A stretch of DNA of 64,000 bases, from positions 3,968,001-4,032,000 of the forward strand of contig NZ_CP092074.1 of the NCBI RefSeq assembly GCF_024138715.1, in the 5' to 3' direction. This DNA is from Emticicia sp. 21SJ11W-3. Lineage in GTDB: Bacteria > Bacteroidota > Bacteroidia > Cytophagales > Spirosomataceae. This document shows positions 42,790-52,001 of this stretch, piece by piece (position 1 is the first letter of the stretch; every line of letters begins with the position of its first letter). The translations under genes and the position numbers were made by a program. Below the pieces are notes generated by a model that did not search any database, was not told where the DNA came from, and saw nothing but the letters and a program-made list of their open reading frames with translations.

Positions 42790-43840
42790 ATCAGTCATTG
42801 GGAGTTTTGAGCCAATCATTTTACCTAAACGTCAGGTAATTATTACCGAAGAACTGGAAGATAAAGTCACTGCCTTGTACGGTCGTGGGGTGAGTACAAA
42901 AGATATTTCCACCCATATTAAGGAGCCTTATCAGATTGAAATTTTGGCTTCTCAGTTGTCTGCCATTACTGATAAGGACTAGGCGTCCCCGTAATTCCGG
43001 CTATGAATGAGTGGAAAACCCGCTCTCTTCAATCAGTCTATGCTTTTGTTTATCTGGATTATATGCACCGCAGCGGCGGACCGCTACAAGGTACGAGAAA
43101 GTGGACGAGTTACTACACGAGCAGTTTATAACATTTTAAGAATAGACTTGACAGGTAAGAAAGATTTAATTGGCATGTATGTCTCTGAAACAGAGGGAGC
43201 CAAATTCTGGATATCAGTTATTACTGATTAAAGAATCGAAGTGTTGAGGATATTCTGATTGCCTGTGTCGATGGGCTAAACGGGTTCCCCGTTGCTATTG
43301 AACTGTTTTTCCTCAAACTTAGGTACAAACCATGTGTAGTTCATCAAATTCGTGCTTCTCTTCGGTATGTGGCTGAAAAAGACAAAAAAGAGTTTATTAA
43401 TGACTTGAAGCCTGTCTATCAATCCCTTACAAAAGATGAAGGCTTTGAGAATCTGATTGCTTTAGATAATAAATGGGCTAAAAAATATCCAGGTCCTATT
43501 CAATCCTGGTACAACAATTGGGAGAATCTTTCAACTTTTTTTCAATACCTAATGCCATTAGAAAGGTCATTTATACCGCAGCGGCGGCCGCAACTAACAC
43601 CATCGAGGGTTTCCACAGACAAGTTAGAAAAATTACGAAAACAAAACGGGCTTTTACTTCTGACAATGCCTTTTTAAAATTAGTCTATTTAGTAGTACAA
43701 AATATTACTGACAAGTGGACAATGCCGCTCCATAACTAGAGCTTGGCACTATCACAACTTTATGTTTTTTTTGGGGATAGGTTGAAACTTCATTTAATGA
43801 CCTGAAAAATCAAACCTGACACAGTTCAGTTTACACTCCC
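42790..43840 (+). pseudogene. Degenerate IS256-family element with short GC-rich inserts
   Basis: Transposase remnants in several frames: GSFEPIILPKRQVIITEEL, then VIPAMNEW, KKDLIGMYVSETEGAKFW, VAEKDKKEFINDLKPVY, and AAAAATNTIEGFHRQVRK. The N-terminal 90 or so residues are missing. It ends in an inverted repeat (43815-43840) matching that of the intact IS at 25846. Two inserts break it: GACTAGGCGTCCCC at 42977-42990 and CGCAGCGGCGGACCGC at 43069-43084. Both are GC-rich in an AT-rich gene. Confidence 0.9.
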
Positions 43841-50735: not shown

Positions 50736-51220
50736 ATTAGCTAAGGTTCAAAAATAAAGTCAGAGACAATATAATTTAATTAAATAAAAAATTCCTAATT
50801 AAGGGGCAAATATTTACAAATAACTTCAAGCAGAAAAATGATTGAGGAAAAAGTCCATCAGCATCTTTTTAACAGTTTATCTATTCATAAATAACAATAC
50901 AAAATTGTTAAAAATATTAGTGAAGAATTGTCAATTTTCGACGATTGGAAGAAAAAAAGGGGATATTGGTTGATTTCAGCCAGCCAATTATGCAGAGGTC
51001 TGAATCCTAATCAAAGCAAGACAAAAAATAGCCGATATCAAACAAGAATAATAATCATCAATAAGCTGGATTATTACACTTACAATTCAGACAATTCTAT
51101 GGATTTGAGTGCTGTCACTCATCTCGATTCTGACGAGAGCGCGAAAGTCTGATCATGCTCAAAGCGGGAACTAACACAAAAAAACTTACAACTGCATCTA
51201 AAAACTTCAGAATAAAAACA
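50736..51220. other. Gap between LruC gene and 5S relics
   Basis: AT-rich, with only short frames on either strand. No clear -7/-33 pair could be assigned to the LruC gene. Nothing else is recognised until the 5S-like sequence at about 51221. Confidence 0.5.
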
Positions 51221-51480
51221 GGGTGGACGCTTATACTCCCAAGTATGAAAACAGTACCAACACGGGACACGTAGCCCCGGAGCAAACTGGGTGTCTTCGT
51301 TTGGCAAAGAATATCCATTTTTACCTACTCCCCAACTTTTTCGCTTGAGCCCCAACTTTTTCGATTGAGCCGAAATTATTTTACCGCCCCACAACTTTTA
51401 GGTTTGATCCCCCTTAACTGCTCTGTTCGGGATGGGAACGGGACGCGCAGTCGAGGTGTTCACCCACCCTATAGACGCCA
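51221..51480 (-). pseudogene. 5S rRNA-like copy 3, broken by IS-end sequence
   Basis: The right part, 51412-51480, matches the proximal (5') half of copy 2, including its 14-nt insert at 51439-51452. The left part, 51221 to about 51296, is a diverged distal half (ACTCCCAAGTATGAA core) with a degraded version of the other insert (ACTGGGTGTC near 51288). Between them lies about 115 bp of IS-end-like sequence. It is therefore an expanded 5S copy split by a mobile element and then decayed. Confidence 0.7.
51330..51411. repeat. Cluster of three IS-end-like motifs
   Basis: CCCCAACTTTTTCGCTTGAG (51330-51349), CCCCAACTTTTCGATTGAG (51350-51368) and a looser CCCCACAACTTTTAGGTTTGA-type copy (from 51386) follow one another. 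The third closely matches the relic end at 48385-48412. They look like ends of ISAon1-type elements nested at one site. Confidence 0.6.
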
Positions 51481-51514: not shown

Positions 51515-51550
51515 CAAAAAAAAAGACCTTAGAATTGCTTCTAAGGTCTT
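51515..51550 (-). terminator. Terminator after expanded 5S copy 2
   Basis: On the minus strand AAGACCTTAG pairs with CTAAGGTCTT around a short loop and is followed by a run of T. It has the same form as the terminator after copy 1 but a different stem, so the stem covaries. Confidence 0.85.
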
Positions 51551-51563
51551 TGGAATAAAAAAC

Positions 51564-51698
51564 TGGCGTCTACTTACTCTCCCAAGTATGAACTCAGTAC
51601 CATCAGCGGTGCGGACTGGGCGTCCCCGGACTTAACTGCTCTGTTCGGGATGGGAACGGGACGCGCAGTCGAGGTGTTCACCCACCCTATGGACGCCA
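51564..51698 (-). rRNA. 5S rRNA-like gene copy 2 with paired 14-nt expansions (135 nt)
   Basis: Helix I (TGGCGTC / GACGCCA) and most core sequence match the normal 5S copy at 51780-51886. Two insertions lengthen it by 28 nt. On the plus strand CGGGACGCGCAGTC is added at 51657-51670, and ACTGGGCGTCCCCGGA (51615-51630) replaces GG. The inserts are complementary: GACTGCGCGTCCC faces GGGACGCCCAGTC with one C-C mismatch. In the standard fold one lies in helix III and the other at the helix II border, so pairing would cross helix III. It has its own terminator but no visible promoter. Either an expansion-segment 5S or a pseudogene. Confidence 0.7.
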
Positions 51699-51732: not shown

Positions 51733-51767
51733 CAAAAAAAAGACCGCTACTTTTCGTAACGGTCTTT
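51733..51767 (-). terminator. rRNA operon terminator after 5S copy 1
   Basis: On the minus strand AAGACCGTTAC pairs with GTAGCGGTCTT (one mismatch region) around AAAA, followed by eight T, 13 nt after the 5S 3' end. Confidence 0.88.
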
Positions 51768-51779
51768 GGAATAAAAAAC

Positions 51780-51886
51780 TGGCGTCTACTTACTCTCCCA
51801 AGTATGAACTCAGTACCATCAGCGGTGCGGGGCTTAACTGCTCTGTTCGGGATGGGAAGAGGTGTTCACCCGCCCTATTGACACCA
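51780..51886 (-). rRNA. rrf: 5S ribosomal RNA (normal form)
   Basis: A 107-nt gene with helix I TGGTGTC / GACGCCA, loop C region CCCATCCCGAACAGAG and the conserved CGCTGATGGTACTG. Normal length; directly followed by a terminator. This is the copy expected to supply ribosomes. Confidence 0.93.
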
Positions 51887-52001
51887 TGAAGATCTTAATG
51901 ATTCTTTCGCTAGTTAACTAACACCGAATCCTGAATATCTTATTGGCCATTAGGCTTTCATTATATGACTTTAATGGAGAGAGAAAAAAACAGATAAAAA
52001 A

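Follow-up and report, generated by a model that had tools for sequence, protein, structure and literature searches.

A long 5S rRNA-like copy behind an rrn operon of Emticicia that probably received two inverted units of a dispersed 14-nt repeat

From our analysis, we propose that the long 5S-like gene in the 64,000-nt stretch of Emticicia DNA that we analyzed (the window) is a tandem extra copy behind an rrn operon, which received two oppositely oriented units of a dispersed 14-nt repeat. We consider this reading, in which the repeat would spread by folded-strand copying and the extra 5S copy would be a tolerated host, quite probable. The unit would be copied through a folded single strand of DNA or RNA, either by some enzyme or by template switching during replication, and it would often land in hairpins, with microhomology helping. 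The extra 5S copy could be tolerated as a host because it would not be needed as 5S rRNA. The comparisons between genomes support well the view that the 2 inserts are inverted copies of a dispersed repeat and are not specific to 5S. The repeat unit is exactly 14 nt long, is dispersed through the family, falls into 2 subfamilies, and is found in both orientations. In the family as a whole, hairpins are over-represented at its insertion sites, the junctions show microhomology, and positions within the unit covary.

The genome that holds the window is 5.18 Mb in a single contig, and Emticicia agri (G008) and Emticicia sp. C21 (G002) are congeners. For all counts given here, “family” means the grouping of the search database; NCBI places Emticicia in the Leadbetterellaceae. 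The rrn operon lies on the minus strand in the order 16S, tRNA-Ile, tRNA-Ala, 23S, and 5S, and there are three 5S-like genes in tandem, the long copy being the second. Copy 1 (51777–51888, minus strand) is the normal 5S rRNA of the operon and scores 80.6 bits against Rfam RF00001. Downstream of it follow an intrinsic terminator-like hairpin (51739–51767, minus), the 135-nt copy 2 (51564–51698, minus), a second such hairpin (51522–51551, minus), and copy 3 (51413–51480, minus), which comprises the first 68 nt of a 5S-like gene, is identical to copy 2 at 67 of these 68 positions, and is then broken off. Our hairpin search found 3 terminator-like hairpins versus 1.0 expected in shuffles. The 2 hairpins that separate the copies have the same flanks and different inner stems, with both arms changed. 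Read by eye, 51220–51300 (minus) corresponds to a 5S-like 3′ half that has diverged and contains what seem to be decayed inserts; the Rfam 5S search gives no match to this segment. Within the broken copy 3, at about 51325–51400, CTCAAGCGAAAAAGTTGGGG and variants of it form repeats some 20 nt in length, and this sequence also follows where the third copy ends in the genome's other rrn operon. In that operon, the 135-nt copy recurs without any difference, and another copy matches it at 99% identity over 129 nt, so that a local assembly error does not explain the feature. In the same operon, an insertion sequence of about 1.8 kb with the ends GAGGCTGTCC and GACAGCCTC lies within the terminator that separates two 5S-like copies (L036, G000:C1:114753-116550).

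Alignment of copy 2 to copy 1 showed exactly two 14-nt gaps and 4 substitutions (135 versus 107 nt), confirming a preliminary description of this DNA in which copy 2 had been taken for a normal 5S with two 14-nt inserts. Insert 1, the subfamily B unit GACTGCGCGTCCCG, occupies 51657–51670 on the minus strand, precisely as described before, and lies within the 5′ strand of helix III as located by the Rfam alignment of copy 1. Insert 2, the subfamily A unit GACTGGGCGTCCCC, lies in the opposite orientation at 51614–51627 on the plus strand, in the 3′ strand of helix II or loop B; it had previously been placed at 51615–51630, off by 1 to 3 bases. In the minimum-free-energy fold, the 2 inserts pair with each other over 12 bp (5 pairs, a C-C mismatch, and 7 pairs), reproducing the complementarity already reported. 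Helix I stays in this predicted fold and helices II and III are gone, so that helices I to V do not all form. The fold is no more stable than those of shuffled sequences (z −0.90; 36 of 200 shuffles at least as good), and the Rfam score of copy 2 is 32.1 bits, below the gathering score of 38. The conflict with the standard 5S fold, which the preliminary description had pointed out, is thus upheld by the score and the lost helices, and the dead copy that it had offered as one option is supported as well. We regard copy 2 as likely non-functional as 5S rRNA. Its low divergence speaks partly against this, as only 4 substitutions separate its core from copy 1, a number more in keeping with constraint or gene conversion than with free decay.

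We first considered that the 5S expansion might be functional or under selection, and we downgraded this idea. In that scheme, copy 2 would be a working expanded 5S rRNA, with the 12-bp insert helix as an expansion segment. The retention of both ends and most of the core with 4 substitutions, the identity of copy 2 in the 2 operons, and the paired helix I in the predicted fold agree with it. On the other side, the Rfam score falls below 38, copy 2 sits behind a terminator-like hairpin, and the insert helix displaces helices II and III, whereas the published expansion segments are predicted, according to passages of PMC7812874, to leave the core unperturbed. Moreover, 4 congeners (G004, G005, G006, and G007) have one 5S and no extra copy in the approximately 400 nt behind it, and, in other genera, extra copies have often lost part of their 5′ end. 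A working expanded 5S is, in our estimation, decidedly improbable.

The repeat to which we assign the inserts is widespread. Subfamily A (GACTRGGCGTCCCC) was found in 73 of the 222 family genomes and 19 of the 36 genera, with up to 34 copies per genome, and subfamily B (GACTRCGCGTCCCG) in 45 of the 222 genomes and 14 of the 36 genera, while a backward-pattern control gave at most 2 matches per genome for both subfamilies alike. Seven of the 11 genomes in the genus of the window genome match the unit with at most 1 mismatch. In a phylum sample of 395 genomes, 4 match, 3 of which are from the family. When up to 3 mismatches are allowed in the window genome itself, there is no excess over the backward control (31 versus 45), and only closer matches stand out. 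The unit also forms tandem arrays with a 14-nt period in family genomes. Within the window, the unit pattern locates a further subfamily B unit inside copy 3 (51439–51452, minus), and a subfamily A unit (42977–42990, plus) interrupts a transposase gene that we take to be IS256-type, of which 2 paralogues in the same genome lack exactly the 14 nt. A variant, GTCTGGGCGACCCC, in which pair 2:10 is T-A, is present at 460045, 3617549, 3620825, and 3625888 of the window genome, and all 4 of these copies lie within about 1 kb of an IS256-type match. In E. agri, a unit is located where a Y1_Tnp match breaks off (profile positions 4–104 of 121; L186, G008:C11:100704-100717); its host is probably a broken IS200-type transposase gene, judging from this partial match. 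A phage source was considered and rejected, since the subfamily A dimer had no exact match in viral_contigs. The A-type 14-mer, the only type searched as letters, is absent in either orientation from the literature text searched, and no such unit is described in the titles and abstract openings of the papers listed for tiny repeats, tandem 5S, pseudoknot repeats, Emticicia, and Spirosoma. To our knowledge, a 14-nt unit, if self-spreading, would be among the smallest such sequences known.

Why, then, are the 2 inserts complementary? They are complementary because they are the same repeat in opposite orientation, and the C-C mismatch arises because subfamilies A and B differ at unit position 6. 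Insert 2, on the 3′ side of helix II, is shared by the second 5S-like copies of G008 and G002, which have no insert at the insert 1 site (51657); among the 5S-like copies inspected, insert 1 was seen at its site only in the window genome. Because insert 2 occurs without insert 1 in both congeners, the 2 insertion events were probably separate. This runs counter to the earlier supposition that the inserts arose or were kept together. A joint origin, through a palindrome-type template switch or with selection preserving the pairing, would account for the 12-bp complementarity, and in some other inverted repeats, such as L100, L102, and L118, each of the two arms does bear the unit. We nevertheless consider it very unlikely indeed: What distinguishes the inserts at unit positions 6 and 14 is also what distinguishes the family-wide subfamilies there, and in G002 and G008 insert 2 stands at its site without insert 1. 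In another inverted repeat (L116), the unit lies in 1 arm and the other arm serves as the empty site. As a whole, the preliminary reading is supported in part; it foresaw neither a structured dispersed repeat nor extra 5S-like copies elsewhere.

The repeat looks as though it is defined by structure. The unit has the form N1N2N3-T-R-N6N7-C-N9N10N11-C-N13N14 with the covarying pairs 1:11, 2:10, 3:9, 6:14, and 7:13, and the helices 1–3/9–11 and 6–7/13–14 cross, in the order of what is presumably an H-type pseudoknot. Among 150 units collected from 8 genomes with a pattern leaving both positions free, positions 6 and 14 are complementary in 145 (G-C, 134 of 138; C-G, 7 of 7; T-A, 4 of 4; A-T, 0 of 1). 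This is a fairer figure for the pair than the 208 of 215 obtained over all fetched loci, which is biased because most fetch patterns fix positions 6 and 14 together. For the remaining pairs, we collected 75 relatives with 2 mismatches to the 11 fixed positions, with no pairing assumed. The mismatches fall in 1:11, 2:10, 3:9, or 7:13 in 27 of them, 24 of which are complementary, versus 48 in the other 51 position pairs, 7 of which are complementary; by pair, there are 15 at 2:10 (14 complementary), 6 at 7:13 (5), 5 at 1:11 (4), and 1 at 3:9 (1). When the 91 position pairs are ordered by mutual information in a set of 100 distinct units, 6:14, 2:10, and 1:11 come first. On these 100 units, the five-pair structure yields 57 double-changed cells versus 25.9 in shuffles, and a covariation score of 0.291 versus 0.124 when shuffled and at most 0.088 when slid, with 10 to 26 of 100 cells unpaired in each pair; all 5 pairs show a double change, but 54 of 500 shuffles attain this number too. 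These covariation counts come from fetched loci and under-sample variants, because the loci were found mainly through canonical patterns, and common ancestry of the subfamilies can mimic covariation and so inflate them. An alignment of 69 units, for which 37 of the 100 units were dropped by eye and 6 structure-found units were added, bears on none of the counts. Helices of 2 and 3 pairs are too short to be stable alone. A generic structural pattern run over the whole window gave 4 matches versus 0 to 3 in 10 shuffles, which is not significant by itself.

Extra 5S-like copies with GC-rich insertions were also recognized by eye in other genera. In genus g50, 7 genomes (L177, L224, L226, L229, L233, L234, and L239) have them after the normal 5S, and 1 genome each of g12, g15, and g22 has them as well; Rfam recovers 1 extra copy of this set, at 32.5 bits. 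The five-pair pairing together with T4, R5, C8, and C12 is found in 1 to 6 units in each of 10 extra-5S regions, with shuffle means of at most 0.05; for the 701-nt region of the window, the shuffled control has a mean of 0.37 and was probably incompletely mixed. Eight of the 10 regions contain a total of 21 non-canonical units, beyond the canonical units that led to most of the regions. In L047 (G003), a 5S fragment before the normal 5S contains 14 nt that look like a reverse-oriented, decayed unit. For Peptococcaceae and Pseudoalteromonadaceae, Stepanov and Fox reported remnants of 5S genes that carry insertions and follow rRNA operons (PMC7812874), and the present extra copies look like such remnants, now in Bacteroidota; “Bacteroid” and “Cytophag” are absent from the main text of that paper. 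The remnants characterized there lie behind a normal 5S, sometimes several together, each after a terminator and with insertions in the core, and copy 2 likewise lies at the distal end of the rrn operon after a terminator-like hairpin, with insertions in its 5S-like core. The remnants lack 1 or both terminal parts, whereas copy 2 keeps both ends and copy 3 is truncated; their insertions are described as large, whereas those found here are 14-nt units of a dispersed repeat. The functional expansion segments of Halococcus and others in the same paper also lengthen 5S, by 13 to 109 nt, but they are predicted to be separate modules on an intact core, whereas the present inserts pair across helix III.

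We next turn to where the units insert. At 31 of 195 distinct sites, the insertion is bridged by a strict stem with 8 or more pairs; the corresponding figures are 19 of 1486 for positions chosen at random from these loci and, in a second control, 31 of 1645 for positions within about 250 nt, the control positions being drawn from all DNA and not from intergenic DNA alone. Since many sites are paralogous or inherited, these site counts are not independent events; by cluster, such a stem is present in 14 of 74, and in 11 of the 14 the unit lies 5′ of the apex, where the clusters follow a loose flank-identity rule that may merge unrelated sites and some of the compared regions were hand-picked from match lists. 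In genome G146, the same hairpin arm directly precedes 10 of the 12 units fetched from 16 listed, and for these 10 the other arm is present in 9 (3 with changes) and broken in 1. This hairpin stands uninterrupted at 6 places in G146 and at 18 places in G111. At the junctions, 17 of 41 site clusters show microhomology of 3 nt or more versus 7 of 328 control places, with loci fetched by a pattern fixing the following G left out. The two 5S inserts sit in arms of helices II and III; no 8-pair stem spans either of them (best score 4), and their junction microhomology in the alignment to copy 1 is at most 1 nt. Another possibility is that each insert was built on site by fold-back copying of the target, its stem mirroring the neighboring sequence. 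In accordance with this, 12 of 28 variants with a non-GAC stem match the flank that follows over 4 nt or more, whereas 1000 shuffles of the flanks gave 3.3 such variants on average and never more than 9; but several of the 28 represent 1 ancestral site in related genomes, and 21 of the 41 clusters share less than 2 nt with the unit ends. We hold construction on site to be improbable.

As for what might move these units, one possibility is that they are REP-like and are mobilized in trans by IS200/RAYT-type (Y1) transposases. The units are small, structured, hairpin-associated, and partly in inverted pairs, and in a comparison of Y1_Tnp counts per genome 37 of the 40 genomes tested had such genes, among them every one of the 19 that carry A units, with a weak positive correlation over these 40 chosen genomes (Spearman 0.37, p 0.019). 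Y1_Tnp is, however, also present in 18 of the 21 genomes without A units, some of which have B units, and the units have no long stem, occur in tandem 14-nt arrays, and are shorter than the 20–40 bp given for REPs in passages of PMC3733652. We judge mobilization by Y1 transposases rather unlikely. REPs and REPINs, as far as described in passages of PMC3733652 and PMC3116915, share with our unit a short, structured, dispersed nature and an arrangement in pairs and clusters, and for CGTC-type REPs no dedicated transposase is known (PMC3733652, in part). But the same passages present REPs as single imperfect palindromes of 20–40 bp, with stems of 8–9 bp in the CGTC type, whereas the 14-nt unit has crossing helices of 3 and 2 bp.

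Another point of comparison is the small dispersed repeats (SDR) of cyanobacteria, reportedly described by Elhai and colleagues in 2008. Our unit is similarly very short, sits at many unrelated sites, and is inserted exactly when compared with empty sites. SDR, as portrayed in passages citing that work, are very short, dispersed, and possibly mobile, and some are in tandem; they are about 20 bp long according to a citing passage (PMC2884548), whereas the present unit is 14 nt with crossing covarying pairs and belongs to another phylum. Within these partial descriptions, the unit is closest to SDR and REPs.

Taken further, the units could represent a class of mobile DNA that is defined by structure and not by sequence: 14-nt elements of the form N3-T-R-N2-C-N3′-C-N2′ with crossing helices, which would copy themselves while folded as a single strand and, throughout a bacterial family, would enter hairpins, terminators, and extra 5S copies. 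We offer this broader proposal tentatively, with our own judgment leaning slightly against it. Should a larger set of units confirm the covariation, it would mean that a sequence of 14 nt is kept foldable during its spread. This would suggest a hitherto unrecognized copying process that responds to structure, and it would provide a tractable system for studying the movement of tiny dispersed repeats. In addition, inverted repeats can leave two complementary inserts in an RNA gene without any selection for RNA structure, and such an origin calls for caution when expansion segments are interpreted.
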